Positions 19,094 through 59,829 of a stretch of 59,829 bases of DNA are shown piece by piece (position 1 is the first letter of the stretch; each line of letters begins with the position of its first letter). The notes under the pieces are model-generated. The model was not told the origin of the DNA. It did not search any database and saw only the letters and a list, made by a program, of their open reading frames with translations. Position numbers and translations under genes: made by a program. Origin of the DNA: Hysterium pulicare CBS 123377. Its lineage: Eukaryota; Ascomycota; Dothideomycetes; Hysteriales; Hysteriaceae. Location: positions 1 to 59,829 of the forward strand of contig AJFK01000749.1 of assembly GCA_000467715.1 (NCBI GenBank). Direction: 5' to 3'.

Positions 19094-19487
19094 TCGACAT
19101 CCCAAGGCCAGGCTCGATCTGAAAGGGATAGAGACTCAGATGGCGCTTGGCAGGTGGTGGAACTTCGTATCATATTCTTCTCGTAGGCCTGCACGTGAGA
19201 GCGCGAATGATGCGCGATCGCACTGTCTACTGACGTTTGCACGAGAAACAAAAGTGCAAAGGAACACGGCGTCGATAGCGAACGCAAAGCTCCATCAATA
19301 TGACATACCGTCTCGTTCACCAACAAATGGTGGTTCTATCAACTTCGTGATGCCCGCATGGCCGTTAGGTGGTGTTGCGGGGAGTTGTTTGGCGCTTTGA
19401 CTTGTTCCCCAGCTGTTCATCCCCTTTCATCACCACTCCGTCTCTCTCGAATCTACCAATCCATCCACCTTTCCACACCCGCCCATC
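19094..19487. other. Short intergenic region, no gene seen
   Basis: About 390 bp between two co-directional genes. It carries the SNG1-like 3' end and the promoter of the next gene. A CT-rich stretch (tccatccacctttccacacccgcc) lies just before the ATG at 19488, as is common in fungal promoters. Confidence 0.45.
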
Positions 19488-36777: not shown

Positions 36778-36816
36778 GCTCCACTCCATTGCGAGCACTG
36801 GATGTTATAACTCTAC

Positions 36817-39800
36817 TTACTTTGATGCAACGAGTTTAGGAAACACGCGAACTCCCGATATGCCAGCATTTTCTACCCAATGAACGATTTCTGGGGCTAA
36901 GCCGAGGGAACCTGCCCTAGCTGCCCAGTTATGTGCTGGTAGGTTTTCAAACCCTACACCCGCCAAGTTCCCTATCGACGAGCTACCGAGACCGCCGAGT
37001 GCTGTAAGGAGATCGGACTTGTTGAGGTCATCCAGCCGAGCTGGCTCGCCCTTATTCATATAGTGTCTGAATTGTAATCCTGCCGCTGGTAGAGCATGTG
37101 CTCTATTTCCCTTCTTCTCCAGCTCTTGTATCGTAGAGATTATTCCTGATACAACCGTTTTTAAGTCCACAGTATTTAGGTATCCTCGGTAATTATCCAA
37201 TAACGGTCTTGCACTCATTATTGAAGAGAATCTGGCTATGTTGTGCACAATGCTCTGTCCAGGACTATCAGGACGTAGTATGAGTGATGGACGATGGACG
37301 TAGATGGGCCATTCGCCATTAGGCTCGGCACTGAGTCGCTCGAGAAAGCGCTCTGCTGCCCATTTGGTCGCTGTATACCCGTCTGTGCCGTCGGTTGGTG
37401 GTGTACAATGCGCGATAGATACCTCTGGGAACTTGTCCTGTCCTGTATGCGCCGAATAGATAATGCCAACCTGAGAGGTAGACACATAGTGTAAGGGAAT
37501 CCGCCTTGGAAGACTCATTGCAACCAGTTGCTTCAGAGATTCCAGGTTTGCGGCGCGTAGCGAGTGATAGGCACGTCGGTGGGAGATATCAGCAGCGGCA
37601 TGTATGATGCAGTTAGCGCGCCCGAAGATCCTCGATGCGACTTCGTCTGCTAACCCGAGAGATGCCAGTCTGATATCGCCCTTGTGGAGAAATACCTTCT
37701 CATGCCCTGCTAGTTGAGCGTGTCTGTCGATGTTACGGACACCGATGCAGTGCACTTCGCTCACGCCTTCGTCTGCAAGCAGGGCATCTAGGATCGCGCG
37801 ACCTAGAAGTCCCGTTGCGCCCGTAAGCACAACTATGCGCCGACTTGCAGGGACAGCTAAGAACGGCGCAGCCAGTCGCGTCTTTATGTTGTCGTTCAAT
37901 GCGGTCTCTGCCTCCCAGTCGATTGGCTCCGGCTCCCAATTTTTGTCGAGTAGTAAAGACATGCTTCCCAACATGCTCGCCTTCAACAACTTGGCAAGTT
38001 GGACCTTAACTCCGAGTTTCTTCTTCAACTCAGCTTGCAGCTGCACCAAGAGAAGAGAAGTACCACCAACGTGAAAGAAATCCGTAGTTGGTACTATAGG
38101 CTCCTGGGGCGTGATAGGGATGACGGATAGCCAAATATCCCGCAGCTGTCGTTGCGCCTCAGTCAGCTCGACATTTGCGCCTTGGGCTCCATGAATTGAG
38201 CCTGGTAAGGGAAGGACTGCAACGGCTCGGCGATCGAGCTTAGACGACGTAGTCCTAGGGAATTCATCGACTGGAAGGACCGCCAAAGGAAGCATGTAAT
38301 GGGGAAGTGGGAGCAAAGAGGGTAGAGATCTCAGTAGCTGCGCCCTATCTTCCGAGCCTACTGGTGGATCGACTTTGACGTGTGCCACGAGGAATTCTGG
38401 GCTGTTGAGGGAAGAGCAGCGAACCGAGACAACAGCCTCAGAGATGGATCCGGCTGCGGCCTCGATGATTGCATGCTCAACGTCTCGCAAGTCAAACCGG
38501 AAGCCCCGCAATTTGACCTGACTGTCATCGCCTGTGCGGCCTTCGATGACAAGGGTACCATCCCGATTCCAGCGGCCACTGTCTCCCGTTCGGTGCATCA
38601 TTGTCCATCCCTTGGTCGTTAGATGCCGAGGCGCGAATGTATCTCTCTTGAAGCGCTCTGAGTTCAGAATTGGATCTTTGAGATAGCCTGCTGCGACACC
38701 TGGTCCACCGACGTATATCTCCCCAGATATGCCAGGTGGCACAGGCCTGAGGTCTCCATCGACCAGATAAACGGAGTAATTGGGCAAGACATTTCCAGCG
38801 GAAATCCCACTTTCTTGAATTGTCACCTTGCCGTGCAGTAATTCTCCGCTCGTAACCCCCCATGTTGTCTCCGTCGGGCCGTACGAATTAAACACGCGAA
38901 GGACAGACAGGTCTAATTGTTGAAATTGCTGAAGCAGAGACGCTCGAACGTGTTCTCCTCCAGAGATGGCAGTCTGCCATTGCGAATTTCGCATCAAGTC
39001 AGCATTGCCATATCTTAACCAGCTCGAATACTCCGTAGGCGTCGCATTGGTGAATGTTACTCCTTCACGGGCAATGATCTCAGTGATGGCAAGGGGGTCA
39101 CCGCGAAGATCTGGTGGGAGGAGAACCACGCTGCCACCGTGGCCAAGCGACATGAACATCTGCGCGTAACACATGTCGAACGTTGCTGCACTCTGCTGTA
39201 GTGCACATGTCATTTCGTCGAGATTGTAAACATGTCCAACTGATTCGATCAAGTTCAAAATCCCCTCATGTCGCAAGATGATACCTTTTGGAGTGCTGGT
39301 TGAGCCACTTGTGTATAAGACCATAGCATAGTCTTCGGGGATGAACGGCTCCACACGCCGATGTTGCCCTGTATACTGTACCGACACATTGATAGTGTTA
39401 ATGTCTAGGCATCCGATCGCCTCGAATCTAGCCTTGGAGTTGTTGTCAACTAGGATCCATCGAGCCTGGCAGCTGTTGAGTGTAGCACCAAGGCGCTCCA
39501 CCGCCATGGACAGATCCAATGGAACGTAGATGGATCCGACTTTCATAATCGCTAGTATGGACGCTATCCAAGCAGCTGTAGGCTCTTGAAGTGTGACTAC
39601 CAGTGTGCCAGGCGTGACACCAGAGTCCATGAGTCTGGCTGCAATTTCATTTGACATGCTTGTAAGTTCTGAATACGTAGCACTCTTTCCTTGACTGGAT
39701 TTGACCGCGACCGCGTCAGGTGTCGCCCTCGCAATCTCCTCAATTCTCCGTTCGATGGTACCCTTCCAATGAAGACGCTGCGAGGGGCCTGGTAATAGTG

Positions 39801-42800
39801 TTAAATAGGGGTACTGGGGCACAGGGTACATCAACTGACCTGAGCCAAATCTAAGGGCTGTGACTACATCCTCTTGGTCGTAGATGTTCGGTTCCGCAGT
39901 AGCCGCATCTGGCTTAAGAGAGAATTCATATACTAGTTTCTTGTACATGTCGAGGAGTGTGTTTGCTTCGGTGGTCGAGTATATGTCGTTATTCACAGCC
40001 AGAGTGAGCAGACAGTCTTGCTCCGCGTCATCCACTACGTCAAGGCTCAGATCATAACCGGTGTTGGAGACTTCCAGCGACACTAGATCGACTTTCAAGT
40101 CTCCCCAGCTTTCTGCTTTACGTTGCCCGGGCCGGTAGTTTACCAAGCATTGAAATATGGGCGTCGACGAAGCTGACCTTGGTGGCTTCAGCCTGTGCGA
40201 TGCTAGTCAATGTGATGATAAACGAGCACAGATACGGAATGGTGATTAGCTACCTGTTTATAAGACTTTGGAAGGGTACACCAGAATTGCTAAGAGCTTC
40301 AAGGGCTATTTTGCGAGTCTCTTGTAGCGCTTGCTCGAAATTATTGGTAGTATTAGAGCGAAAGCGAAGGGGGAGCACGTTAGCGTAAACGCCCAAACTT
40401 CCCACGTTGTCGTCATTTCTACCTGCGTCGACAGTGCCAATAGCGATATCGTCGACGTCGGAGAACCGCGATATTAGCACCCTAAAAACTGTGAGGTAGA
40501 AGTGAAATGGAGTAACCCTGCACTGACGGCAAATAGAAGAGACACGTTGCTTTGTGTCCAGACCGATTTGTGCCTCCAAAGTGGCACTTTTGAAAGACTC
40601 CAAGGTGGGCCGCATGGTGGCTCTCGAAACACATAAAATCGGCAGTGGAGACGGGAAGCTGGGGTACTGTGCCTGCCAGAATTTGAGTTCATGGTCTAGT
40701 CTGCCAGCCTCGAATTCGACTTGTCTCGCTTCTGCGTATTCTCTGAATTGTACGGTTGGGTGGCGCGGTAGCTGCCGGTGGTAATGCCGAAATAGGTCGA
40801 CAAGGAATATGCGAACAGAGATCCCATCCATACAGAGGTGGCTGGCCCCGAAGACAAGGAAATGGTTTGTAGGCGTGGTAGAGACCAAAAGAAGCTTGAC
40901 CAACTCGCCGCGTTCAGCGTTATATCTGTGCTGCTTGACCCGTTCCACCTTTTGTTTGATCAAAACTTGGTCGTCAACCCACTCATGCTCAAGTCTTAGA
41001 GCACTCTCCTTCATGATGCCCTGCGATAGAACCCCGTCACGATTCAAGAAACAAGTCCTCAGAGCTTCGTGTTGTTGTCCAAGATTCCAGAGTGCTCCTT
41101 CCAATCGGTCGATATCTACACGACCGTCAACCCTAAATAAAGCCGAGAAATTGAGACTAGTCTTGTCTTCGAATAGTGTCAATGCAGACCAAAACATTAT
41201 CTGGGTAGGAGACAACCCCGATGTTGTCAGAATCGCAGAGTTAGGCTCATGATGTTCAGCTGACACTGATAGCGTTGTGAGCGACGATGTCTCCGACGCG
41301 GCTCCAGCACCACTGCTTGAGGAGGCAAGGAATTGCTCTTTCAAGCGCGTGTGGTAGGAAGACGACCCTTCCACTGACCCAGACAGGTTGGGGGCAGAGT
41401 CTTCCGCCAAAGATAGTTCGCTTTGAGGAACCAAACCAGCATCAATGCCATCTACTGACGCTGACACAAGTTCCTCGATTGTGATGCCGCTGAGGATTTT
41501 CAGAACAGAGTAGTTGAAATGAAGGTTCTCCATCAGCCATGCCCGAATTTCAAGTGCAAGGATGGAGTCGATGCCAAGCTCATCTAGACGCGTGCTGGGA
41601 CTAAGTGATTCCATCATTTCCGAATTGAGCTGCAATAGGTCTCCTAGAGCTTTGCATAGAGCATTCTGTACGAGTGTGTGGACCTTGCTGAGGCTTTCAG
41701 CTTCCAGGAGTTGAGATTTGAGAGAGGCTTCTAAAGTCACTCCCCTTGAGCGTTCTGTGTTATCTGCGGTGTTGACAATGAGGTGAGCCATCATGGGGTT
41801 GGATGCCCATTTTGGCTGCAGTGACTCGTGCCGTGCGAATGGCTCAATGCCGGCGTTTATCTCGGTACTGTTTTCCTGGCCATCGGCCATGACAGCTTCA
41901 GCAAATAGTTGATGAAAGTCGCTCACCGATAGTTTTGTGAAACCCATAGCCATCTTCGTTGTTGAAGTGTCCAGGCTCATTTTAGAAATGTATCCAGCTC
42001 CTATAACTGCTCCAATGTTGATGACCGACGCCGCGAGACCTCGCTGCCTCCTTCTCTCAGCTAGAGCCGTCATGAACATGTTGGCAGCAGCGTATGCCGA
42101 CTGGCCTGGGATACCAATGATCGAAGAGATGGACGAGAAGAAGACAAAGAAATCCAGATTGTGGTCCTGAAAAATCTGATCTAAGTGTAGGCTCCCTTGA
42201 ACCTTTGGCAGAGTGACTTGAGAAAATGAGTCGTAGTCCATGTCGCTCATGTTAGCATCTCTGAGGACCACTAAGAAAGTTTTTAGTGTGACAAGCACCG
42301 GATTCATGAATTATTGACGAGCTTACTGGCGCCCTGAGCAACCCCAGCAATTGGAGGTAAATCTGCACAGATTTCATTGTATAGGTTGATCACATCGCTT
42401 GCCACTGAGATATCACTGGAAAAAGTTAGCGAAGATTCAGAACACGGGGTATGGTATTCAGATAGTACCAAGAGCGAATCCAAACAGTAGCCCCTAGGTT
42501 GCTCATTTCCTCCTGCCAACGGTTTTCTACTTTCGGTGCACGGCTAGACAGAACCACGTAACGAGCTCCATGATGAATCATCCATTCGCACAAGGAGATT
42601 CCAAGACTTCCAGTAAGTCCGACAAGCCAGTAAGTCTTACTCGGAGAGAACAAGTTTGATGAGTCAACAGGCCTAACCTGGACCGCGACTTTATCGTTAC
42701 CAGACCAGTGAACGATGGACCTTGGCTTGATGTCTCGACTGGTATCACAAATATCCTCAAGGGAGACTTGATTGAAGCTCGTGTAATCGCTTGGCGCCTG

Positions 42801-45800
42801 CGATAATAACTTAGATGTTTGGGTGGCTATCTTTTCAAGCTCGCGGCAAAGACGAGGAGTTACTCTGAGTTCTGACTTGGCCGTCGCAGACTGGCTCCGA
42901 TAACTCTCAGCATGAAATGATGCGTACCTACACCAATGCGGGACGATAGACAGTAATCTAGCTACCAGCCTTTCATTTTGTTTCCTTGTCGAGAAATCCA
43001 TGAACACTGTTACAGAGAAAAGATCCAGGGCTTCCAATTCCCGATTCGGCGCGCAGGGGTGAAGAGCACAAGAGCCAGGCAAGCTCTTGGCCTGACTTGT
43101 AATGAAAGTAAGCCTAAGGCCCTTTTCTTGGGCTATTGGGCTTAAACACCTAATCAGGGCACTGGAAGGTTCCAAGACGAGTAAGTGATCACCCTCCTCG
43201 AGTCCTCTCAGATTGTCGTAGGCAAAACAGACCTGGCTAGCCAGCGTGAGGAATTCGGCCTCGCGACCATCCGTCACCTTCACAGGATATATCAAGGCCC
43301 TGTCTGCTGTCACCAAAGACGTGTGGCGATCGGACAGAGCAAGGAATTGGCCTGAATCCTCTTCTCGACCCATAGCTAGAAACAGGTTCTGACCGGAGAC
43401 AAGTATAGGGGTCAACAGAGAGTGCGAGATTTGTCTGTGCGCCCCGCCATTATCACTCTTCCCCTTGTGATTCCAACCCTCTTGAAGAATGTATCCGCTT
43501 TGTGTTAAAGATAGACTGATCTCTGACTCTCGTACGTCAGTGAGCCTATTAATAGTCCGACGGGAAGAATTGTAGCGATCATTCATTGCTCCATCGGGTA
43601 TCAGGCGTTGCACTAGGACTTGACCTCCCGACGACACAATCAATTCGCGCTCGATTTGAGCGAAAGCCATATCAGTCTGCTCTTGTTGCCATGATATGGA
43701 GGCTCGGAAACGAAGAAGGAAAGCTTCAAGTAGGGCGCTGTTCAGCTGGTCTCTGTCCTCAATGTCGAGAAATTGTAGATTCAGGCCGAGCGTCTCGTTT
43801 TTGGCGATCCTGGCCGCACCTGCAAGCATGTTTGCGTAAGGTTCGCTGGCGCGACGGCCGCTGGTAACCCACATGATGGAGCGCGGGCCCTGGAAGAGAA
43901 GCTTTAGTTGTTCCCACTCCGTTGCGCTCATATCACGGAATATTGGACGATCGAGCTCGATGAGGCTGAGTACGGTGCTCGTTGTTAAGAGTGCAATCGA
44001 GCCAAGCTCTTCAAGGGTCCGCGCGGTCTTGAGAGTCTTCCATTGTCTCCGGAACCGAATGTCCAACTGATCGACAAGTTCTGAAACCTCACCATGGCTA
44101 CCTCCAAGTACGACCAAGTCGTTTGATGAGTCACTGAAGCCTAAGGAATGCATACTGCCCAGACACGAAAGCGGATCGCGGAGAAAATTGACCCTTTCAT
44201 CCATTGCTTGAGAGACAAAAACCGTTAGAGGTTGGGTGAAGGTGTCGATATCGGGGGTAACGGTATCGCAACCAGAGAACCCGCACTGGCGAAGTAGAGT
44301 ATGCCACTCCTCGACGTCTATGCAGGGTGACAGGCGGCGGCCATCATCCGAGCCGATCCACCACCCAGGGAAGCATCCGAACATAGCAGTCCAACGGACG
44401 GGTAGATCCTTGTGTAGTTCAAGCACGATAAGATACCCACCTGGCTTCAGAAGCTGTCGAATATTTTTGAGACTTTGGCGGAGAGAAAATGTAGTGTGCA
44501 GTACCAAGGAAGCGATGACCACGTCATACGAATGATTCGCAAACCCTTGCTGACCCGGGTCAATGTTGACGTCCAGCGTTTTATAGATCATCTGGACAGG
44601 GGTCTCTTTGAATAGAGTTTCCGCAGAACTAAAAAACCCTGAGGAGATATCGGTAAACGTGTACGACAGAAATGACTGTTTTGCTTCCTGGAAGATTGCT
44701 CGTGTGGCACCACCTGTACCAGCCCCGATCTCAAGGCATTGAAGATGCGGAAGGCGAAATGCAATTTGGGCGACGACGCGGGCTAAGTACGTAGTATATT
44801 CTGCAGTCCCGAGACCATGCTGATAGTAATTGCCCAGAATGTTACCTTGCATCGCGACCTCAATCGCCACCAGATCCCCCGTGACGATGTTCACAATACT
44901 TTCTCCTAGGGTACGGAGGAGTTTAAAGTCAGCCACATCTGGATTTTGGTCACATAAAGCTTTGATGTCTTGCGTTGTGTCTTTCTCCCAGTGCGCATGC
45001 CACCATGGTTGCCTGCGAGCCTCGCGTCTTAAACGCGCATGAGATACAAATTCGAAGAGTGCCACATAAGGGCCTTGATGGCGAGAAGGATGTTCCTTGG
45101 GTACTTCGCTCTCGAGCATACGGAGATAAAACCATGATACCCTTTCCAATTGGCAGGCGGTGCGGTATTGAGCTTGGGAAGTTTTTTCTTCGAATGTGAC
45201 TATCTCAGCATTGGGTAACAGCGGCCCCCAGACAGTCCTGGAAAATAGCAGTTTGTCGTCGGCTTGCGACGTAGAAGCCAGGGGTTGGCAGCATAGACTC
45301 TCGACCTGCATAATGATGCGGTCAGTCTTCGAATCAATGATATCAACGTCGCCAGAGACGGAATTGTCCTTTGCTTGAGAGGCATCGAAAGCAAATTGGT
45401 CTCTCTGCTGCGCGCGAAGGCACATCTTTACGTCAAAGGCGAGATGTCGGACGCTGATGGGCAAGTGGATTGATGTCAGTCGGCCGTCCCCGGGAGCCGA
45501 AGCTGTGAGCAGGACGCTTTGAAAGGCCGCATCAATGGTGGCAGGGTGTATCAAAAAGTCTGATTGTGGGACATAGGAGATCAAGCCAGTTGCAGCACCG
45601 AGTTTTCGGTGAAGATTTACTAGCGCCACAAATGGTCCTGCGTAGTCTGCGTGATCAAGAATCAGAGGCTGCAGGCCAACTAATGAAGGATGATTTCTTG
45701 CCAGAGAGAGTGTTCACAAGAACGACTTACGATAACCGAGTTCTGATAGCGCGTCATAGAACCCGCTGCTTTGGACCCTCATCAAGTTCGTTGCCTGCTT

Positions 45801-48800
45801 GCTCCTAGCCGGTAAAGACATTGACGAGCTCGCCCCCAGCCAAATTTGAATGCTTCCAGAGGCCAGCGACTCAAGCATATCACTCTTACTTCTAGCTGCG
45901 TTGAAACTGAAGTTGGCTTTGACATATGTTCCCCCAAGTCTCTGGATGTCTGTCAGGTAGGTGACAACTTCCATCTCAGATTCGGTGCTATCGAATACTA
46001 ATGCTCGACTGAAGGTGATATGAGATATTTGTACTGAAGATACCGAATCATTTTCAACTGTCTTCAAAGACGCCTCAATTGCGGCAGTGACATAGCCGGC
46101 GGCTGGAAACACCATCTGGCCCTGGATACGATGGCCTTCTAACCATCGCAATTCTTTGGGTCGAAGTATGTTCCGCCAGCTCATATTCTCATTGGTGGAA
46201 TTCGGACATAAGTGACCGAGGAGCATGTGGACACTATCTGGTCGCTGAAGAACGGCCCTGGTCTTACGTGACTCGAACCAGTACTCATACTCGTGATTCC
46301 AAGCGTACGGGGGGAGTTCCAGACGTAGAGGCAGCACAGGAGCACCAGTCATGAAGGTATCAAAAGATTGGAAATCAACAGATTCTCTGCCAAGGTGTGC
46401 TGCGATATACCCGAAGCAATCAGCAAGTGCCTCCAGATCACTCGATCCTCGCCGGAGAAGACTAGTGTACGGTATATTCTGGCCGCAAAACTCGTGGACA
46501 TTTTGAAGAAACGGAGCCTTCAGTGCCGGGTGCGGTCCGATCTCAATGGCCAAATCAAACGCGCCATTGGTTTCGCATGCGTAGCGCACAGCTTGCATGA
46601 ATTGTACAGGTTTTTGCAGGTTAAGATCCCAGTAAGGACCAGCGAGAGATGTAGCCGGACCATCAAATGCACCACCGTAGGTGCTGGACGACCATGTTGT
46701 GGGCAAAACCGTTGGAGTTGTGATGTTGAGCAAGGCCATAGATTGAAGGTAGGCAGACGAGCAATCTAGCATGAGATCAGAGTGATAAGCCTGGTCAACT
46801 TTGAGGATTCGCGCGAATTTCTGCTCGTCTTTCAATACCGCCTGAATTTCGTGAATAGCGTCCACGCGACCAGACACCGTCACACTATTCGATGAGTTGA
46901 CCGCAGCGATGCAGGCCCGATCGACGAATTCAGGTTCCTCTAGAAGCTCCTGAATATCATCCTGTGAGCTTCCCACGGCCAACATAGCGCCAGTCCTTCG
47001 AGCAAGCCGAGTGTGAAATCCTCTATAGTACGCAATGCAAATTGCATTCTCGGCAGAAATGATCCCTTGGGCGTAGGCAGCTGCGATTTCTCCTGACGAA
47101 TGCCCTACTGCAGCGGTGATTGGAACGCGCGCACTTCGCATGATTTCCAGAAGCAGGATCTGGATTGCGGTGCAGAGCGGCTGCGATAATTCTGCTTGAT
47201 TGACGCGAGATGATAATTCGTCGCGCTCCAGCTCCTCCACCAAAGACCACGAGGGAGGCTCCGGAAGACGCGCCAGGCGAGCATCTAGCTTTTCGAGAAG
47301 TGAACGGGAAGATGCAGACTTTGCCAGTAGATCAGCGCCCATGCGTGCCCATTGTGCGCCTTGCCCCGTGAAAACGCATATCACCTTTGGAGAACGGCTA
47401 CCTGTAGTCATGCTCGGCCGCGAGCCCGAAGAATCTGTGACAGGTCGTTGTGTTGAGTCCAGCGAGCTTTCGATTCTAGAAGAAAGCTCCTGAGTCGTAG
47501 ATGCCGAGAAAGATGCTACAATGGGAAGCCGGGTGCGCCGTGAATGCAAAGTATGAGCCAGTTGTCGCATGTTGATTGAGGCGCCTTTGCGTTGAAGGAA
47601 ATCGTGAAATCGTTGAAGATTGCGAAATAGCGATAGCTCGTTGGTTGCTGAAAAAATGAATGGAGAGAAAACCAGGGTATCAATTGTGCAAGTATCGCGC
47701 CCTGTAGGCGCCCGGTAAGTCTCAAGAATTGCATGTGCATTAGCACCGCCAAAACCAAAGCTGTAATCGATCAAGTCAGTACGTGATCAAGATGCAGAGA
47801 AAGGTTTTAAGGTATGCCGCACCTGTTGACGCTGGCTCTGCGAGGCGCACCATCAGGAACAGACGGCCAAGCAGATGCAACTGTTGGAATACGCAAATGA
47901 CGATAGAACGGTTCGATTGAGGGATTCAGTTGTTGAAACAGCAGATTTGGCGGAATAACTGCGTTCTGCAGAGCGAGAGAAGCTTTCAAGATTCCTGCGA
48001 GGCCCGCTGTGCCTTCAGTGTGCCCCATGACAGTCTTGATGCTGCCAACAAAAAGAGGGATGTCCTCGTCGCTCCTGCTATCGGAGAAAACAGAACTAAT
48101 GGCCTCCGCTTCGGTCGGATCACCTGTAGGAGTTCCTGTACCATGCGCTTCGAAATACTGCGGGTGATCACTGGCTTTACGAGTATCGAGACCTGCTCGC
48201 TGGTAACAGGTACTAATGAGTTTGGATTGTGCTTGAGCGCTCGGGCTAGAATTTCTCAGAGTCAATTTCTGTGATTGTAAGGTAGGCTTCGGCGTTGACT
48301 TACACGGTGATGCCTCTTGTTCGTCCGTCTTGGTTGACGGCTGTCTCTCTGATGACGCATTGAATGTGATCTCCATCCTTCTCCGCCTGCGCAACCGTTT
48401 TCAGTACGACAGCCGCGACACCCTCCCCACGCGCATAACCGTCCGCCCGAGAATCCCACATCCGACTCCTTCCAGTTGGACTAAGCATTTGAAGCTTACT
48501 TTCGCCGATGTATCCCACAGGATCCAGTAAGAGATTAGACCCTGTGGCAATTGCAACCTGAGAGGCACCTGACCGCAGCTGCTGAACTGCATAGTGAACG
48601 GCGTAGAGACTCGAGCTACAGGCGGTATCGATGGTCAGAGAAGGTCCATGCCAGTCGAAGAAATAGGAAATCCGATTTGACATCAGCGATCGGGCTGTTC
48701 CTGTGATGTGGTGGTTGGGAATTGTGTCCTCGTCGCGACTCATCATATGTTCGTAATCAGAAATCATCATTCCCGAGAATACAGCGGTTTCGGAGCCTCG

Positions 48801-49154
48801 AAGACTCTCCATCGGCTGGCCACCATCCTCCAGTGCCTCGAACACGGTCTCGAGAAGTAGGCGAACTTGCGGGTCAAGGCTTTTGGCTTCGAGGGGCGGA
48901 ACGCCGAAAAACTGGGCATCGAATCGCCTCACATTATTATCGTCCGACAGCAGGTAAGACTTGTCCACGTTTGTGTGTCCATGGTATTGTCCGTTCTTGT
49001 GATAGAATCCTTGGCTGCTGAACCGATTCTTAGGTATGAAGGAGAGAATGTCCTTAGGATTGACTAGTGAGTCCCATAAGCTCGAAGGCGAGTTGACATT
49101 TCCTGGGAATCGACACGCGCTCCCCACGATTGCGATAGATTCCGTGGGCCCCAT
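36817..49154 (-). CDS. Hybrid highly reducing PKS-NRPS synthase (KS-AT-DH-MT-ER0-KR-ACP-C-A-T-R)
   Basis: Seven exons on the minus strand: 49154-48304, 48245-47823, 47760-45731, 45646-42469, 42415-42327, 42270-40254 and 40192-36817 (introns 53-84 nt), giving 3987 residues. The iterative polyketide synthase part has KS (Cys179 in DTACSSSL, His318, His359), AT (GHSSG, Ser646), DH (His968 in [10 protein letters not shown], Asp1140 in DAAFQ), C-methyltransferase (LEIGAGTGG from ~1406), a degenerate ER region, KR (GLTGSLG from ~2111, Tyr2250) and ACP (GIDSI, Ser2426). The NRPS part has C (SHLCMDG, His2668), A ([12 protein letters not shown] at ~3155-3166, Asp3202, Lys3514), T (GGTS, Ser3575) and a terminal SDR-type R domain (GATGLLG at ~3654, YTATK with Tyr3802 and Lys3806). 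It would fuse a methylated reduced polyketide to one amino acid and release it as an aldehyde or tetramic acid. The start Met directly precedes the KS. The enoyl reductase at 58538 supplies the missing ER. Confidence 0.97.
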
Positions 49155-50207
49155 TTAAGCCCTCAATCGGAACCGGTCGAACCCAGACGAATATTAACGA
49201 GGCACTCAACCAAGTGAAGGTGAAGGTTAAAGTGCCTTTTATAACTTTTGCAGAACGCGAAGGTAGTGCTACTAGTAAGTGCTAGTGGAAAGATATGGTA
49301 GTCGGAAACAATATGCCCTCTATGTAAATATGATGAAATTTGGCAGACATACGATGCTGCTCGGTGTTGCGAATGTTTTCGATTGGTCCAAGATAGATTT
49401 CTGGAAGTCATATAAGCCATTCGTTCCATTTCAGAAAGGCTTCATTGCACCCCCACAGCTGTAGCATACGCAACGGGCATTGTAGCTTGATTCAGTCAAT
49501 GGACTACGGACCTCCGTAATGAACGATGACTTGACCCGTTTCTACGACGCACACAAGGTTCTTGAAACTGACAAGGGGCACTATACATGGGCTAAGTCCG
49601 CCTGTCTAAGGCCGCCGGGATATACTCCAGCAGCCCATATTGCACTCACTACACAGGGTAAGTGTGAATGCGGCGTCGCTGCATCCTCTTCCATCTAAGG
49701 CTGAGTATGAATGCGGCGTGAGTCGATGCCGATGCGCATGGAGGATTGGCGGCAGTTTAGTCCTTCTCGACGCCATCGGTGATCAAGAAGACGTTGAGGC
49801 ACTGTGATCATCATGGCCAGCGCATTAATAGATCCTGTAGCCGTACATGCGATGTGGTGGTGAGTGAGGTGGGGCCTTTGCCTTGTGGAGATGCGCAGGG
49901 TGGGGTGCAGAGCCGGTCGTTGCGTCGCTTAGTCATGTGAACACCAATCACAAATCTTGACAGCGAATACGCACTTGTTGCCTTAACGCCGCTGATTGAA
50001 GGCAGCCAAGAGCGAAGTACATCCAACGAGAGCTTTCATCATGGGTGCAGATCCCTTGACCTGAGTCCCGATCAACAATCAATATGAGGAAGGCGCGGTC
50101 ATATGTTACATGATACAAAATTCATTAAGACGCCTATTTCAAAGCAGCCAATATTATGGGCCCCCTCTTGGAGCCGGAGCACGATGCCAGATATCGATCG
50201 TATCCTC
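49155..50207 (-). promoter_or_regulatory. PKS-NRPS upstream region with repeated AATGCGGCG element
   Basis: About 1.05 kb between the PKS-NRPS start and the stop of the next minus-strand gene. Two copies of AGTRTGAATGCGGCG lie at 49661-49675 and 49704-49718, about 500-560 bp upstream of the ATG. The TGCGGC core recurs in the other cluster promoters. Around 49265-49287 there is AGTGCTA-CTAGTA-AGTGCTA, a small direct repeat around a palindrome. No gene is supported here. Regulatory function is inferred only from position and repetition. Confidence 0.4.
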
Positions 50208-51334
50208 CTACGCCACTTCGGACCTGTACGTGTCGAGAGCAACACAATCGCTCCTATCGTCAACCCTGATCCAAGTCAAGTCCTTGCTATTCTGTGCCGT
50301 TGCAGATCGCGGTGGTCCATGTGCGTGTCTCCAGCTCAACGACATCGATGCCTTGGAGGTAAGATTGGAAGTGAAGATACTGACTTTTGTGAGTAGTGGT
50401 TTGAAAGTGATCACGCAGCAGCAGATGATGCTGAGTCCCATCTGAACGCTAGCCCATACACCCATGATGTATTGATTGCCAACAGCAACGCCGGCTCTCA
50501 GGCTTGTGCCGATCTTGACGAAGCCAATGACACCAGCAAGGCCGCCAATCGTGAAGACAATTGACAGTCTCCATCTTGTCTTCTTGTCCGTCTGTAGGCC
50601 CCGCAGCATGATCACCGCTTGTATCGCCAGAACAAAGTCTATAAGAGAGTTGGCTGACTCGTTGACGGCAAGGAAAGGGCCGTAGTGGATGCAGTGGCCT
50701 TCGATTTGAGGTGTCCAGAATTTGCTGATAGGTACGCACTGAAAGATGTTGACAAAGACGTTCTCGATCGTATGAATTATCTGTAAGGCTCCGACAGCCT
50801 TGATCCAGAACGCGTATGTATGGAATACGCCGAAGATCCGGTAGTATAGGAACAAGATGCTCATCTTGGCGCAAAGTTGATTGAGAGGAAACATGAGACT
50901 TGCAACGAACAACATCTGATTGACTTGTATGAGTGCATGGTCGATTGAGCTTAAATTTCCGCAAAAGGGGATGGTTGTACACTGGATGATGCGACGGGAA
51001 CTCACCTTGTTTACAGCAGCAATCTCTTCAGGTGTAGACCCTGATCCGTCTGGTGCTGTCCGAACATTGCTGGACACTGTCAAGGTGAGCCTTGTTCAAT
51101 ATTCCGACGTTTTCAGAGCAATTGTATACTGGACTTACTCAAACTGAGGAAGACAACCCAGAGAAGAAGGCAAATGAGTGCCCCCAAGGCGAGCCAATCT
51201 TCCATGGCAACACGACGCTTGGTCAATCTTGTAGCGTAGAAGCGTAGTCCCGTGACGATGATGCAGATCGGAGTAAAGACAACAAGAACTGCAAAGCCAG
51301 CTTGCAGTACTGGGTCGGCGAAAAGTCCTGGCAT
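50208..51334 (-). CDS. Rhodopsin-domain (PTH11/SAT4-like) membrane protein inside the cluster
   Basis: Three exons on the minus strand, 51334-51139, 51076-51006 and 50915-50208, with introns of 62 and 90 nt, give 324 residues. Seven hydrophobic helices with family motifs are visible: FAVLVVFTPICIIVTGLRFY, AMEDWLALGALICLLLWVVF, MFPLNQLCAKMSILFLYYRIF, FQCVPISKFWTPQIEGHC, SANSLIDFVLAIQAVIML and VGNQYIMGVWASVQMGLSII. The loop after helix 2 is polar (APDGSGSTPEE). The tail of about 50 residues is basic and Ser/Thr-rich. It lies between the PKS-NRPS and the P450, divergent from the P450 with a shared ~1 kb promoter. It is therefore probably part of the cluster, although no catalytic role of the family in biosynthesis is known to me. 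It may transport, sense or simply be a bystander. Confidence 0.88.
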
Positions 51335-52324
51335 CTCGGAAGTATACAGCCCATATAATTCTCAGTTCAGCCAGTGCCGTTTGAGCTATTGTTCTAGGTA
51401 TAACAAGAGCGTTATGAAGCCGCTGAAGGTAATCACTTAGAGCGAACGCGATCCCGGAGGACTTTGGAGGGGCATACAGGCGTTTAACAGACTTCTAACC
51501 TCGAATATCTAGAAGCTGACTTCGGTGTCCGAATGGACTGCCCAGGACGGATAACAATCTCATTCTTCTGATCCTATGGAGTACAGTGTTTCAGGGGTAA
51601 GTTTCACCAGTAGATACTGTAGTAGACCTGTGACGTAGGAGGAAAGAGAGACCATGATTTGGCTACTTATGGCACGCGAAAGGCCACTGTCCAGTCAAAC
51701 GAGAGTGGCACAGTGCAAACGCCAGACTTCCCTGGTAAATATACCCCTACACCACTGTACACGACCGTCGCCCTGAGAGCTTACATGGACTGACTGGGGA
51801 CTGAACTCGTTGCCAAACGAGAATGTCTGCACCAATCATTAAGAAGCTTAGCACCGCAAGTCAGCGCTAGCCGTCGAACGCAATACGGTCGTTGCCTGGT
51901 CATCTTGAAGGTGTTGTGTATTGACCCTATCAAATTCATTGCGGCACAGCGCCTGCTCTTCGCTCCGGACAATATCGGAGGGTTCAAGTCGATGCAAATT
52001 GATGCAGGTTAACGGCTGACCGGTCAATATCGGTGGGTTCAGGTTGATGCAGGTCTATGCAAATTAACAACTGACCGTTCAGCAGCTCATGCATGCGAGG
52101 CACTTCCGAAACAGCCCATGCAGGTGGCACGGAATGTGTGACATCAGGTGTCAACCGTGCGAGTGGACTCTACTTGCCTAGATAGTTCTACCACCACAAC
52201 ATGCTAAGCTGCAGAGCCCCACTTGCCCTTTCGCAGTAGATGCATTGCCCATCGTTTGGAACGATCGAGGTATAACACGACCAACAAAACCCTCACTCTG
52301 TACAGAAACGAGACTTTCCGCAGT
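51335..52324. promoter_or_regulatory. Bidirectional promoter region of rhodopsin-domain and P450 genes
   Basis: About 990 bp separate the two divergent start codons. It contains an ATTGCGGCACAGC word (51938-51950) that also occurs twice in the enoyl reductase promoter. Next to it is a 55-bp tandem duplication (51970-52079). No gene is supported within it. Shared regulation of the two genes is an inference from the layout. Confidence 0.5.
51970..52079 (+). repeat. Imperfect 55-bp tandem duplication in the bidirectional promoter
   Basis: Copy 1 is 51970-52024 and copy 2 is 52025-52079. Both start CAATATCGG(A/T)GGGTTCA and end GACCG(G/T)T, each holding GATGCA and ATGCAAATT words in different order. 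The copies lie about 250-350 bp upstream of the P450 ATG. The internal TCGG and CGG words could be Zn2Cys6 half-sites. Confidence 0.85.
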
Positions 52325-54325
52325 ATGGAGAACCTTCTTGCACCGTGGCTGGCTACCTTCACCCACTGGCGATTCGAGACTGCGCTAGGTGCTGTTAGTA
52401 CTTCCACCATCATCTTCCGCGTGACAATCTGACGACGCAGGTGTTTGCGTACATCATATCACGATACATCTACCTAACGCATTTTCACCCGGCTTCCAAG
52501 TATCACGGGCCGCGCCTGGCTTCCATATCTAATCTCTGGCTCTCATACTACCGGTACGTAGGCGGTTTCTAATGAGAACAGGATCAATAACATACCTTTA
52601 ACTTATCTCACGTAGATTCACTGGGAGATATCCATGGGCAGTCGAGGATGCGCTTAAAAAATACGGTAAGCTCGGTATTGGTCTTGGTTCTCCGTTCAAT
52701 CGCTAAAAAGACTGAGGCGACGTCGTTCGGATTGCGCCAAACGAGCTGGTCTTCATCACTCCACAGGCAGAATCTGGTAGAAGCCACCACGAGGAAGTGA
52801 AATACATCCACAGCGTATATCTGACATCCTTGGCATTCTAGATATCTACACGTCGCATACCAAGAACCAAGAGCACTTCCGCAAAGTCGACTCTGGAATT
52901 CCGCTGCCAGATGATGGTATCTCTTTCGAGAGAGATCCGGCGAAGCATCGACAATTGGCCAAAAAGCTAACAGGAGCATGGAGTGCTAAGTCTCTGAAAA
53001 CCATGGAGCCGACCATGCATTCGTACATCGACTTGTTCATACAGAAGCTGAAAGAAGTTGGGGATAGTGAGGACGGCATAGATCTCCAAGCTGTAAGTGC
53101 GGTCTCCCACCGTTCCGACCATCAATCAGCGAACATACCCATGATAACAGTCAAGCTACCACTCAGTGGACGGACAGACTTGCCATGGACATGTCAGCCG
53201 AATTGGCGTACGGCCGCAAGATGCGTCAACTTGAAAAAGGTAATTGTCTTCTTGCGCATCTTTCTGCAGCGGGACATTCGCTGAGTATCAAACCCAGGCG
53301 AAAATGCGCCTCTATTGGATACCTTCTGGCAGTTGAACTTCTTCATCACCATTAACAGGATTGGCAACATGTTTCCTTTCCTCAGTCCCGTGAAATATTT
53401 CTTTGTGCCGCTCAAGGTGCTGCTCAGCCATTTTCGCATCGAACAATTGAATCGCGAAGCAGTTGAAGACCGTGTCGCGCGTCGACATGAGCCTCATCCG
53501 TTGGACCACTTCGATAGCATGCTCCCACCGGAAGCGCCTGTTCCCGTGGGGCGCGAAAAGGTGCATTTTGAAATACTTGCAGGCCACCTCCTTGTTGGCG
53601 GGTTCGAATCAGTCTCTGGTCAATATCATTGCGCACTCATGTTCTTGCTGCTCCAGCCTGAGTTGCTACAAGCTTTAGTCGACGAAGTCAGGACGACATT
53701 TGATAAATTCGAGCACATCGACGCGGATTCCTTAGTCTCCTTGCCGTTTCTGAACGCAGTTATGAACGAAACGCTTCGAATGACGGTGAACGTGGCGGCA
53801 ATCATTCCACGCGAAAGCCCAGGTGCTACAGTGGACGGAAACTACATACCGAAAGGAGTACGTAGACATTGTACTAGCTACCATAGCGACTCTCTTGATA
53901 AACTAATGCTTTGATCATCGCTAGATCATCGTTCACTTTGCCCATTTTTCCTTCACTCGCAGCCCGCGCTACTTCTATGATGGCCGATCGTTCCGGCCTC
54001 AGCGTTGGCTCCCCAGAGAGCATCCCCTGTACGAGGCGGTCTTTGAAAACGATGCCACTGAGGCTTTTCATCCATTTGGACACGGCCCGAGATCTGTGAG
54101 TAGCGTCACCTTGAGCTATCCAATTTTGGCTAATCAATTTCGTAGTGCATTGCCATGGCACAGGGATTGCGGCAGCTAAGACTCTACTTGGCCAAGGTAC
54201 CTTGGGCGCTGGACGTAGAGCTAGTACCCGGCCAAGATCTCAACTTCGAACGAGACTCACGACTCTATGCGATGTGGGAGAAACCCGGGATGCGCGTGCG
54301 GTTCCATCCCGCGGATCAGGGCTGA
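52325..54325 (+). CDS. Cytochrome P450 monooxygenase of the cluster
   Basis: Nine exons: 52325-52393, 52441-52553, 52616-52665, 52717-52776, 52842-53092, 53167-53239, 53298-53857, 53925-54095 and 54146-54325 (introns 47-74 nt), giving 508 residues. It is a heme monooxygenase, anchored in the ER membrane by its N-terminal hydrophobic segment (ALGAVFAYIISRYIYL). Landmarks are the Pro-rich hinge region KYHGPRLA, VVRIAPNELVF, the I-helix GGFES (306-310, a variant of A/GGxE/DT), the K-helix ExxR E363-R366, FRPQRWL, and the heme-binding FGHGPRSCIA with Cys450. It resembles the P450 group often found in fungal polyketide clusters. It most likely hydroxylates, epoxidises or rearranges the PKS-NRPS product. 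The site of oxidation cannot be read from sequence. The start was chosen because it splices into the membrane anchor. Confidence 0.9.
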
Positions 54326-55348
54326 ACATAATCAATATATAATTGCTGAAAAAGGGCAATTATGATTCCAGGAGTTAAATTCAAATAATCTATGCTTTAG
54401 TGCGTATTTATCTAGAAGCCCCTTTTTATATTTTTCAGGTTCTACTAATATTTTCTACGAAATACTGAGTCTAAAATTAAAAATCTTTACATTAATGTTT
54501 ACTTATAAAGTCCCCTTGGCAGTCTAAGCATCTCAGAATATAATGACTATGTGCAGCCCTGCCACGAATGCTTAGAAACTGAGTCATGCTCGAAATAAGA
54601 AGTGACCATCCTTTGCAGCTCACGCATGCACAGCCGGACAAGGTACATGCATGGGGATAATCACGGGTGGAAGTAGGGGATGATGTAAGTGATAGTATAG
54701 CGATACTTTCAGCGCTCATGGTCGGTGTATGTGCGGGAAGGCAACTCTCAGACCAAAGATCCCCTTCTGGACTGCAATTATATTAGCTTTTTATAGAGCC
54801 GTCATCTCGGATACAGCCCCGTACAAGAGCAAGAGCTGAGGATAGGGTCATAGGTGTCCCCGCAGCCTTTTCATGTTCAACATTGTCACCTTGCCAGGGT
54901 ATGCTATTTCTTTCACGTTCACGTTCCCGTTCGCCCGGGGCCAAAGCGGTGCCCCTGGGCTTTGGCGTGGGCGAAGGATGGATTGGATCCACGTTGGATC
55001 CAATTCACTGATCTTGATATTTCAATATTATAACTGTAAATTGTCTCACTGCATCGGGGTCCGACGGGTGGCGTCGAAGTAAGACGAACCATCCGGCTGG
55101 GGTTCAGAATTTTAGCCTGCTTCTTCGATATCCAGCCTGCAAGTGTGCATGGTTGAACATGACTGAATGAATCAGTTCAGAGGTCGATCTGGCTGACAGC
55201 GGTGACGCCCTTGTGGAACTCATGGGTAAAGTATCGGCACGCCAGGCTTGGAATATATCCCGCGCGGACAAGTAGTGACTTCTATCGAGGCTGCTGCCGA
55301 GTGCCACTACCCTTCTACTGACCATCACAGCGACTATAATAAGCAAAG
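54326..55348. other. Intergenic region with AT-rich block
   Basis: About 1 kb between the P450 and MFS genes, both on the plus strand. The first ~180 bp (54340-54520) is strikingly AT-rich compared with its surroundings. This could be the P450 3' untranslated region or a decayed, RIP-like fragment. The rest should be the MFS promoter. No gene is supported. Confidence 0.45.
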
Positions 55349-57411
55349 ATGCAGTCCATACAATCAAGCACCCATACACGTAACGCTGACGGTCATGACA
55401 ACGACCGGCAAGTCATAGAGGGCCACCCTTCAACACCTCCACCATCGCGCGTCGAGAGCAACAAGGAAAAGACCTTAAACGATGCGCCGCCAGCCAAATC
55501 CCCCGATTTTCAACGAGGCATCCGATTCTGGTGCATCATTGTAGGGCTCTCCGTGTCGTCGCTGCAAAGTTCTCTCGAAAACAGCGTCATTGTTACTGCT
55601 GGGCCCGCTATCGTGAAGGATCTTGCGATGGGAGAAGAGTACATCTGGATCACCAATGCATTTTTTCTCTGCTGGTACGTGTCATGTTGTGTCATGTTGT
55701 GTCTCCGTTGGGTTTGTTTGAAAGCTCACTCTTCTCTCCATCTTGCAGTGCTGCTGTCCAGCCTTTATACGGCCAATTGTGTAATATCTTTGGCCGCCGT
55801 TGGCTCATGTTGGGTGCAACGGCGCTGTTTACCCTCGGATCAGGCATTTGTGGTGGAGCGATCAATAGCAGTATGCTGATAGCTGGCCGCGGGATTCAGG
55901 GCGCAGGGTCAGGCGGCATGGTCATGATTTCCGGTTCGTTCTAGTCATTTAATACCTTCGATCGATTGAGCGACAATTCACTGACCAGAATCCACTTTTA
56001 GGCATCATCATTGGAGATCTGGTGCCACTACGTCAACGAGGCTACTACCTTGCAATCGTAATGATATCATATACAGTGGGTATGACGGCAGGGCCAATTG
56101 TCGGGGGTGCTGTTGTTGATTCAGGTTCCTGGAGATGGGTACGTCAAGCCGCCCAAGCACATGCGTCACTTCCCACGGCTTGGTGCTTTCGCAGAATGAA
56201 TACTGACATGGCGCCCAAATCAGGTCTTCTACCTCAACGTTCCCATCGGCGGACTCGCACTGATGGTTCTTTTCTTATACCTGCACGTTAGCTACGACAA
56301 AGAGATGAAGTTATCACAAAAGATGAAACGGATCGACTACGTTGGCAACGGTCTCCTGATGGCTGGGACAATCTCCATGCTCTACGCCCTAACCTACGCC
56401 GGTGTCAAGAGCTCTTGGGGAACTTGGACGACTCTCGTGCCTTTCTGCCTGGGACTGTTCGGCCTCCTGTTGTTCGCATTCTGGGAGTCTTATGGCATAG
56501 CACCAGAGCCAGTAATGCCACCGCGACTATTTCGCAACCGTACCTCCAAGATTATCGCCGTCAATACGTTCCTCCACTGGATGCTGACCTACTGGGGCAT
56601 GTACTTCCTGCCGCTCTACTTCCAGGCCGTGCTCTTGTACGCGGCGCGACATACGGGTGTCGCCCTCCTCCCCATGACCATCTTGTCCATCCCGAGCTGC
56701 GCCATTGCAGCCACACTGGTCTCCTACTGGGGCCGCTTCAAATGGCTCCTGACGGCCGGCGAAGTCGTCTTCACGCTGGGCCTTGGTCTTTTGTCCATGC
56801 AGCGGCAAAGCAGCACGACGGCAGAATGGGCGACCTTCCAGTGCGTCTGCGCTATCGGTGCTGGAGTCGTTCTCGAGACCCTGCTGCCGGGCTTCCAGGC
56901 ACCTGTCGACGAGGAGGACCAGGCTGCTGCCACTTCAACATGGGCATTCATCCGCACCGTAGGTGGCATTTGGGGCGTCGCTGTACCCGCTACAATCCTG
57001 AACAACCGCATACAGGCCCTGTCCTCGACTATCTCAGATCCTTCCGCACGCGAAGTCTTCCGCGCAGGTGGAGCGTACGAACACGCATCCGCCGCATTCA
57101 TCCACAGGTTTCCTGAACCCATCATCAGCGAAATCAGACACATATACAAAGAAGCTCTGCGTGTCACCTTTCTGGTCGCTGTTGGCATAGGCTGTTTTGC
57201 GTGCGTGCTTTTCCTATGTCAGCAGGACGTCCCGCTGAGACAGCATCTCGAGACCAAGTACGGGTTGGCTGACGAAGTCGAAGCAACTCAAATGAAGCTC
57301 AAGAAGGAGAAGAAGACGGAAGTGGATCGTGCTGCTGCTGCTGAAAGGGAACGTGGGTCGCTCGGAGAAGATGGAAACAGTGCTGTGAATGAGGGTGTGG
57401 TGGAGGTCTGA
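55349..57411 (+). CDS. MFS multidrug-type exporter (DHA14-like, 14 helices)
   Basis: Four exons, 55349-55674, 55749-55933, 56002-56138 and 56224-57411, with introns of 74, 68 and 85 nt, give 611 residues. A polar N-terminal tail of ~65 residues leads into the transporter. Motif A appears as [10 protein letters not shown] and motif C-like as [17 protein letters not shown], followed by [16 protein letters not shown], the strongly conserved start of the central region of drug:H+ antiporters. The number of hydrophobic segments fits the 14-helix class. The C-terminus is a long Lys/Glu-rich tail. Within this cluster it most probably exports the metabolite and so gives self-protection. The substrate itself cannot be deduced. 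Confidence 0.93.
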
Positions 57412-58537
57412 GAGAAGTATTTCTTCTGGATTGTTTGGTACTTAATCATTGTGATTGTCTTGTCTACCTATGTATCGATGATGCTCAGTCATAGATTGCC
57501 TAACTTCCGTCATACAACATCTCCATGTCCCAACCGTCCGCTTGCACAGGATCGACCAAGCAGAACTGTCTCAAACGCCCATACACATTTGCAAAAGACT
57601 ATTCGTACCAGCACCTCATCACAAGGAATCCCATCGTAGTCAACAGGTACGTCGGAACAGCCTCGATTCGGTTTCACTAGGCAACTCCAGGTTACTCCTT
57701 GTGTGTATGCCTGTCCTCACTCGTACTTCTGACCAGGGGGCTCACCGACCGAGTGCGAGTGAATATCTGTTTTGCCGTGATACCCACGGAACAAAGCCAT
57801 TGCACCGTTGCGCTCGCCCCTACCTCTGGGTCTCACTCCATAGATCCTGGAGATGTCTGAACTGTGCTAACCATCAATGAAACGAGTACTTACTGCAGTA
57901 TTCCAAGTCCGACGAGGCACCAAGAACAAGGCATAAATTACGTGTAGATCAGGAATACCTTCCCGAGGTCCTAATATAGGTTGTTTCACGAGTATGGGCC
58001 AATGACGTCCAAAGACTAGGTCGTGCTTGTAAGGCTTAATTAAAACACCCCTATCGGACGTGAAGAACTGCAGTAATATAGGAAGGAAAAGCCCGATTTA
58101 AGATAAGTATGCAAAGTCCCGCAGCCTTCTGGCGCCATAAAGACTTAGCCATATTGCGGCACAGCCCTGGGAACCGTTTTGCGTACCACCATTGGACGTG
58201 AAAAACTGCAGTAATATGGGAAGGCAAAGCCCAACTTGAGATAATTATACAAGCCCTGTAGCCGTCTGGAGCTTTTTATAAATAGCCGATATCCTGCAGA
58301 ACTGCATGCATTGAGAACATTTTGGCCTCATAAAGACTTAGCTATATTGCGGCACAGCACTGCGAACCGTTTTGCGTTGAACTGGCGAGAGGGCTGGATC
58401 CAGTAGTGTGGAGCGAGTACATCATCGCATTATGTGAAGCTATCTCTGATGCCTTGATAACGTTTCGTCTTAAGTGCCCAGGGCCAAGAAAATTTGTAGG
58501 ACTGTCATAGTATTCTTGCAGCTCGGCGTCATCGAAA
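57412..58537. promoter_or_regulatory. Upstream region of the enoyl reductase with interleaved repeats
   Basis: About 1.1 kb between the MFS stop and the enoyl reductase start. Frames at 57451-57880 have no recognisable features. The right half contains two pairs of interleaved direct repeats, described separately. TATA-like TTTTTATAAATAG at about 58272-58284 lies far (about 250 bp) from the ATG. It may be a core promoter if the leader is long or has an intron. Confidence 0.4.
58054..58377 (+). repeat. Interleaved direct repeats A-B-A'-B' upstream of the enoyl reductase
   Basis: Element A (58054-58132) recurs as A' (58192-58269); both begin TYGGACGTGAARAACTGCAG and end with GCCKTCTGG. Element B (58136-58184) recurs as B' (58329-58377) with only a few mismatches. 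It contains CATAAAGACTTAGC, ATTGCGGCACAGC and GAACCGTTTTGCGT. The order points to one duplication of a ~130-bp unit, later separated by an extra ~60 bp between A' and B'. The repeats may be regulatory or a remnant of a small mobile element. Confidence 0.88.
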
Positions 58538-59703
58538 ATGGTCACCTCCATCTCGTTATCAGCAAATGTACAGATTCCAGCTACACACAGTGCAGTGGTC
58601 GAGGATGCAAACGGCAAGCCTACCATATTGGCCAACGTTCCAGTGCCAGAGGTGCGACCAGGAACCGTCCTCGTCAGGACTTTGGCCGTGGCACTCATGC
58701 CAGCAGACTACAAAATGGGTCTTGCGTTCCCAACGCCAGGTGCGGGCGTTGGTATGGACTTTGTTGGTCGTGTCGTGAAGCATGGAAGTGAGGAAAACGA
58801 CAGATTCCATGTAGGCGACACAGTCTGTGGTACCGTCCCAGGCTCTTTTCCGCACCAACCATGGAGCGGCGCATTTGCAACATATGTGCTGGCGCCCGCC
58901 GATTTGATCTGCCGCGTTCCTGACCATATGTCGCCTCTCAACGCGGTGAGCATTGGGACGCCTCTGCTTACCTGCTCTATGGCCTTATGGGGCTCCCTGA
59001 GTTCGCTTGGTTTGAAGGGAACACCATCGAGTCCGGCGGCTCCAGGGGACTCAAAATTCGTGCTCGTCTATGGCGGCAGCTCTACCTGTGGAACTATGGC
59101 GATTCAGCTGCTCAAACTGTAGGTTTTCCTACAGTCGTCTCAACCTACTCCTAACATTTCGATAGTTCTGGCCATCAGCCCATCGCTACTTGCTCGCCAA
59201 AGAACTTCGACCTAGTAAAGTCCTTCGGGTCAGTCAACACGTTTGACTATTCAACTCCCGGGATCGGAAATACAATCAGAAAACACACAGATGGCAAGCT
59301 TCGACACGCGCTGGACTGTGTGACCGACAAAGCTTCAGTCCGCTGCTGTTACGAAGCCCTGGGCCGGCCTGGTGGACAGTATGTCAGTCTGGAAGATTGT
59401 CCAGACGACTGGAAGACGAGAACTGTGATCAAGACGAACTTCGTCATGGCTATCGAGGCATTCGGTATCGAGTGTCGCCTGGATGGCCCATATTATCGTC
59501 CAGAAAGCGCAGCAAAACATCAGAAAGCTATCGAACTGCACCAGATGTACCAGAACTGTTTAGATATGAAACAGATAAAGACACACCCACTAGAAGTAGT
59601 AGGGCACACGTTGGGCAGCATTTTGGATGGATTGGACCGGTTGAAAACAGGAGTTGTGTCTGGAAAAAGACTAGCTATAGTATTGCTAGAAGAGAATTGT
59701 TAG
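58538..59703 (+). CDS. Trans-acting enoyl reductase (LovC/ApdC/TenC type)
   Basis: Two exons, 58538-59118 and 59166-59703, with a 47-nt intron, give 372 residues. It is a medium-chain dehydrogenase/reductase without the structural zinc site. Features are an N-terminal GroES-like fold (AVVEDANGKP, VPEVRPGTVLVRTLAVALMP, DYKMG), GMDFVGRVV, GDTVCGTVPGS and the NADPH-binding loop VYGGSSTCGTMAIQLLKLSG across the splice. HALDCVTD follows. Enzymes of this type dock with a highly reducing PKS lacking an active ER and reduce the enoyl intermediates in chosen cycles. The PKS-NRPS here has such an inactive ER region, so the pairing is very likely. The splice is confirmed by continuity of the Rossmann segment. 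The gene is fully inside the window, ending 126 bp before the edge. Confidence 0.94.
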
Positions 59704-59829
59704 AGCTTGCACCCTAATGTATGCGGTAGGAATATATAATAAATGTTAGGCCTTAGAGCGCGCTTTTGTTAGAGAAAGCTATAGACTACTCTAAGTAAAC
59801 CTAGTAGTACTTCTATATATAGCTTATAA
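59704..59829. other. AT-rich right edge
   Basis: The last ~125 bp are rich in TA dinucleotides (for example TATATATAGCTTATAA) and short CTAGTA-like words. This composition resembles the beginning of a RIP-affected, repeat-derived block, but the piece is too short to say more. Confidence 0.3.

Follow-up and report, generated by a model that had tools for sequence, protein, structure and literature searches.

Between positions 36817 and 59703 of a 59,829-base contig of Hysterium pulicare CBS 123377 (contig C495, in full; hereafter the window) lie five neighbouring genes, which encode a polyketide synthase–non-ribosomal peptide synthetase (PKS-NRPS), a fungal-rhodopsin membrane protein, a cytochrome P450, a major facilitator superfamily (MFS) exporter and a LovC-type trans-acting enoyl reductase (trans-ER). 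We consider it probable, from the sequence, that this locus represents what has been sequenced of an orphan highly reducing (HR) PKS-NRPS plus trans-ER cluster, whose product a reductase domain would free, the P450 would oxidise and the MFS protein would export. It would then be an ordinary orphan example of a well-known class, cut by an assembly break. That five adjacent genes of such length match these families excludes a chance origin. An initial annotation of this DNA had marked out the same interval, and its borders proved exact to the base: 36817 is the final base of the PKS-NRPS stop codon on the minus strand, 59703 is the final base of the enoyl reductase (ER) stop codon, and every one of the five genes was located where it had been claimed.

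Splice models were drawn up manually, guided by GT-AG borders and by the continuity of domains, and all gene models are thus predictions. Comparisons drew on Protein Data Bank (PDB) chains, Pfam, the organism's own genome (an assembly of 37.2 Mb in 596 contigs) and open PubMed Central (PMC) papers, which are cited here from excerpts. In the left flank, selected frames were profile-scanned.

A degenerate ER domain and its stand-alone partner

The features that carry the assignment are as follows.

36817..49154, minus strand: PKS-NRPS, 3987 aa (spliced frame without stops, Pfam domains, catalytic motifs)
45647..45730, minus strand: 84-nt intron in the dehydratase region, borders GTAAGT..GCAG, holding the in-frame stop 45714-45716; length a multiple of three
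58538..59703, plus strand: LovC-type trans-acting enoyl reductase, 372 aa, two exons (ADH_N and ADH_zinc_N; match to LovC over residues 18-366, E 1.5e-61)

Joining seven exons on the minus strand (49154-48304, 48245-47823, 47760-45731, 45646-42469, 42415-42327, 42270-40254 and 40192-36817) across six GT..AG introns of 53-84 nt yields the 3987 residues that had been announced, with zero internal stops. Within the exon frames, Pfam matches were obtained for ketosynthase (KS), acyltransferase (AT), dehydratase (DH), methyltransferase (MT), ketoreductase (KR), acyl carrier protein (ACP), condensation (C), adenylation (A), thiolation (T) and reductase (R) domains, and the predicted splicing places them in the order KS-AT-DH-MT-psiER-KR-ACP-C-A-T-R. 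From 47786 to 42429 a single in-frame stop occurs, at 45714-45716, in an intron whose length is a multiple of three; on a naive reading it would be called a nonsense mutation. Such a mutation is ruled out, since the stop lies inside the 84-nt GT-AG intron and the frame is kept after its removal; the joined exons read GYHYAGPF, which we take to be a typical DH stretch.

A motif scan recovered the catalytic residues, much as the initial annotation had stated when it described all essential residues that it could locate as kept: the KS C/H/H set, AT GHSSGE, DH HRIQGQMVFP and its D, the MT motif, the KR Y and ACP LGIDS in the PKS half, and the A and T motifs in the NRPS half. In the R domain, Y3802 and K3806 are joined by the Ser of an STS stretch, leaving the Ser-Tyr-Lys triad intact. 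One departure was found in the C domain: the usual HHxxxDG appears as SHLCMDG, with Ser replacing the leading His. The residues described as essential (PMC3202784), namely the other His and the Asp, are kept. The further suggestion that the system looks functional is supported, at the level of sequence, for a PKS-NRPS plus trans-ER pathway.

Between MT and KR, no match to the ADH_N or zinc-dehydrogenase families was obtained in Pfam at E<=0.01. Because this region is without an enoyl-reductase or zinc-dehydrogenase match, the synthase's own ER appears degenerate, and a degenerate synthase ER with a separate trans-ER is described as the standard arrangement (PMC7421883, PMC5667575). The hallmarks of the class are present together in the window: KS-AT-DH-MT-ER0-KR-ACP fused to C-A-T-R within a single reading frame by the predicted splicing, a degenerate own ER and a stand-alone LovC-like ER.

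Taking the genes, domain order, motifs and the pairing of degenerate ER with trans-ER from the sequence, and the reactions from family knowledge, we envision that the iterative PKS would build a C-methylated chain (methylation being optional), with the LovC-like partner supplying enoyl reduction for the degenerate ER domain. The NRPS module would couple this chain to one amino acid; the resulting polyketide-amino-acid amide, methylated and partly reduced, would be freed by the terminal R domain. An aldehyde so released could become a pyrrolinone given a hydrolase beyond the contig end, and otherwise an alcohol; the P450 would oxidise the product and the MFS protein would export it. An undescribed metabolite, as suggested by the initial annotation, is a possible outcome.

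Relation to characterised systems

LovB and LovC are the top PDB matches for the window KS and ER, and the division of labour is the same; LovB differs in being without an A-T-R module. Over KS residues 1-283, LovB (370 bits) scores above a chain named 'putative polyketide synthase' (332 bits, the sum of two KS matches) and PsoA (323 bits). PsoA, the pseurotin PKS-NRPS (PDB 9x29), is the top PDB match to the end of C and to A-T-R (E 3.8e-158). It differs from the window synthase in its KS match below that of LovB, in its adenylation code (DAYTMAAICK, hand-read from the alignment) and in its class, pseurotin clade II-D, for which the excerpted listing gives no trans-ER (PMC7421883). In ACE1/RAP1 of Magnaporthe and CcsA/CcsC (cytochalasin E/K), too, a trans-ER stands in for an inactive synthase ER and the R domain has Ser-Tyr-Lys (PMC5667575); CcsA is also similar in its adenylation-code pattern (PMC4994942). 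Both pairs are likened here through published descriptions, as opposed to sequence alignment. In a KS tree the window groups with LovB, PsoA and the ketosynthases of contigs C23, C51, C210 and C476 (97/96), the C210 row having 104 residues only.

Reductive release against Dieckmann cyclisation

From sequence and analogy, reductive release to an aldehyde seems somewhat more likely than Dieckmann cyclisation, because the Ser-Tyr-Lys triad is intact and ACE1/RAP1 provides a precedent. ACE1, paired with its trans-ER RAP1, and CcsA, paired with CcsC, made linear amides at the alcohol oxidation state when the other genes of their clusters were not expressed alongside, and an intact triad was itself used there as an argument for reductive release (PMC5667575). 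Several points weigh on the other side. The R domain of the second PKS-NRPS of this genome, on contig C210, likewise keeps Ser, Tyr and Lys; that domain may be a Dieckmann cyclase, and its cluster has a Diels-Alderase gene. No Dieckmann-specific residue was found in the published survey, as excerpted (PMC7421883); no Knoevenagel-type hydrolase was seen adjoining the window cluster; and the KS placement inside the tree group given above is not resolved. Since the triad is also kept in C210 and the survey gives no diagnostic residue, Dieckmann release stays a serious rival.

In that rival account the synthase ends in a Dieckmann cyclase, the locus belongs to a tetramate, 2-pyridone or acyltetronate type, no hydrolase is needed and the visible gene set may be near complete. 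We consider this possible, though less likely than not. Gene sets with a trans-ER and a P450 and with neither hydrolase nor Diels-Alderase are listed for the tenellin type (Ia-D-1), the burnettramic type (Ib-A) and, with an added alpha-ketoglutarate (alpha-KG) enzyme, the acyltetronic type (III-B), and most unassigned clade III synthases are described as CaaA-related (PMC7421883). In keeping with such sets, no hydrolase was seen in the window cluster, and of the acyltetronic (III-B, CaaA) features the trans-ER and P450 are present. The alpha-KG oxygenase, however, is unmatched among the selected frames scanned on this cut contig, where the cluster has one P450, and the R-domain triad is intact, though it is not diagnostic. 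The adenylation code also argues weakly against a Dieckmann type: hand-read at the GrsA positions, it is DMANIGSWGK, a pattern resembling those of CcsA (DMSEVGCFCK) and Syn2 (DMSSVGGFCK; PMC4994942), a comparison that involved no tetramate codes. Swapping two differing code residues between CcsA and Syn2 did not change substrate specificity (PMC4994942). We predict no amino acid for the window synthase, because that exchange failed to switch substrates.

The contig end and the cytochalasan question

The contig ends 126 bases past the ER stop codon (59703 against 59829), in agreement with the earlier remark that further cluster genes could lie past 59829. Its last bases are these.

59769..59828, no strand assigned: AT-rich contig-end sequence, 90% identity to the final 60 bases of contig C321

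This AT-rich end, common to C321, is the likely reason for the assembly break. It offered no join to a neighbour: the end sequence matches only itself and the C321 end, in the same orientation. No pathway genes were recognised in the first 10 kb of the 37657-base contig C496, where the 13 frames reaching 110 aa or more were judged by reading without a family search.

The initial annotation had held that a missing hydrolase, Diels-Alderase and second oxidase separate this locus from cytochalasan sets. The window cannot show that: because the contig stops so soon after the fifth gene, their absence from it is not evidence. A hydrolase and a Diels-Alderase are part of cytochalasin-type sets (PMC7421883, Table 1), and neither was seen in the cut window; of the features of the cytochalasan clades III-A and III-D, the type II-beta Diels-Alderase had no match among the frames scanned there, nor had an alpha/beta-hydrolase (Knoevenagelase) among the cluster frames scanned. 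The sole evidence on the cytochalasan point is a genome-wide search with Pfam DA_N, limited by the 596-contig assembly, which returned three match rows at two loci (3/3 candidates scored). On C210 the DA_N gene sits in that contig's own PKS-NRPS cluster, and on C108 it is AsqO-like and near GH35 and GH20 genes. With both loci elsewhere, the search weakly disfavours a cytochalasan pathway. PF06500 (FrsA-like hydrolases), a family that we assume to cover Knoevenagel hydrolases, was likewise found at two loci, on C42 and C110 (2/2 candidates), and these appear to us to read like Ayg1-type pigment-pathway hydrolases.

It is unlikely, in our estimate, that the locus is a cytochalasan-type cluster severed by the contig end, whose hydrolase and Diels-Alderase would have to lie on another, unlinked contig or fall into a gap. 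The trans-ER and reductase-like R domain would suit such a cluster, as would the abrupt contig end and the hand-read adenylation pocket with its likeness to CcsA and Syn2. Against this, the DA_N loci are accounted for by the C210 cluster and the GH35/GH20 neighbourhood of C108, although an assembly gap could hide a third, and the code resemblance is weak given that the exchange of two differing residues left specificity unswitched (PMC4994942).

A complete five-gene pathway without a ring-closing enzyme, whose end product after one P450 step would be either linear, as an N-acyl amino aldehyde or alcohol, or a ring closed spontaneously, strikes us as comparably improbable. Nothing pathway-like adjoins the synthase on the left, where a degenerate ATPase-like stretch is followed by a phospholipase A2 gene, and ACE1/RAP1 and CcsA/CcsC do form linear alcohols without a hydrolase, there as shunt products (PMC5667575). 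Yet the right edge is an assembly break, and the selected left-flank frames include a transcription-factor domain and an FMN oxidoreductase, at least 25 kb off. We give still less credence to the stronger version, in which a compact pathway ends at reductive release without hydrolase or cyclase and the linear amino aldehyde or alcohol is the true metabolite, possibly with the rhodopsin-domain protein as a dedicated accessory. A triticone/curvupallide type was rejected by description: the published cluster has 20 genes, and its synthase is listed without MT and ER in the excerpt used (PMC6915911).

The orphan HR-PKS-NRPS plus trans-ER reading adds one intact-looking, unassigned locus to a class that is already known and large; of 884 PKS-NRPS clusters surveyed, 26% were left unclassified (PMC7421883). 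Should the compact gene set prove complete, it would probe whether a pathway of this kind can finish with reductive release and nothing more. Its present value lies mainly in a clean gene model and in the caution that enzymes may be missing here because of the assembly break.

Other synthase loci in the genome

Gene content and introns mark the genome as fungal, and an Alt a 1 family match (46 bits) weakly suits a pleosporalean or allied ascomycete; a 5.8S search returned no match (39 of 1289 candidates scored). The genome holds at least two PKS-NRPS genes, those of the window and of C210, against one reported for Parastagonospora nodorum (PMC4205913). The best-matching synthase KS pieces lie in a remnant on C476 (57-65% identity), on C23 (58-59%), on C51 (55-56%) and on C210 (48-55%). 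On C210 lies another PKS-NRPS cluster that looks complete; besides the synthase it has Diels-Alderase, trans-ER, FAD monooxygenase, MFS and Zn2Cys6 genes. It is alike in pairing a PKS-NRPS with a LovC-like ER (38% to the window ER) and differs in having the Diels-Alderase, FAD monooxygenase and Zn2Cys6 gene; its synthase pieces are 26-55% identical to those of the window.

At C476:3442-6647, on the minus strand, a broken PKS-NRPS remnant comprises KS and AT pieces (44-63% to the window synthase) and, after a loss of about 2650 residues between AT and T, a T-R piece (36%); its KS contains stops. C23:205682-214892 encodes an HR-PKS with a reductase domain after the ACP and no A-domain match between the two; it adjoins a P450 and a Zn2Cys6 gene.

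Accessory genes and flanks

The remaining genes of the cluster are the following.

50208..51334, minus strand: Fung_rhodopsin (PF20684) membrane protein, 324 aa (Pfam 1e-33 on the longest frame; splice model)
52325..54325, plus strand: cytochrome P450, 508 aa, nine exons (splice model; Pfam 1.2e-44)
55349..57411, plus strand: MFS exporter, 611 aa, four exons (MFS_1 4.7e-38, TRI12 5.8e-17)

The rhodopsin-domain gene has three exons (51334-51139, 51076-51006 and 50915-50208) and adjoins the synthase on the same strand, as no more than a possible member of the pathway. A simple hydropathy scan of its protein picked out five hydrophobic stretches rather than seven, some being long, and a search of the open PMC literature for PKS-NRPS together with 'rhodopsin domain' and three further terms returned no paper with all five. 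Read by eye, the P450 translation shows FGHGPRSC and NETLR and, at the I-helix position, an acidic residue. A 2-pyridone (Ia-D) or burnettramic (Ib-A) set would call for a ring-expanding or a chain-hydroxylating P450 of the clade; for the one P450 present, the nearest PDB matches are distant, the best being CYP3A4 (4.7e-21).

To the left, among the frames scanned, no pathway-type gene was found close to the synthase. Just downstream of the PKS-NRPS, at 36200-36812 on the minus strand, the degenerate ATPase-like stretch has GPPGLGKT and LLDEAN in one frame with stops between, and its longest frame has no Pfam match. The phospholipase A2 family gene lies at 34872-35471 (Phospholip_A2_3, 7.4e-42). 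Farther left are the fungal transcription-factor domain at 9700-11709 and the FMN oxidoreductase at 2709-3674. Frame 19401-21116 has QSregVF_b and ExoX-like_C as its sole Pfam matches; their best stretches span 28 and 14 residues, none passes alone, and they look spurious.

Upstream of the ER gene, duplicated and interleaved units of 58-68 bp occupy 58047-58377. The idea that these promoter repeats are a shared element or transposon was dropped, as a genome search with 57880-58500 returned the window's own copy only (1/1 candidate). Upstream of the P450 gene, a 55-bp tandem repeat lies at 51965-52081.
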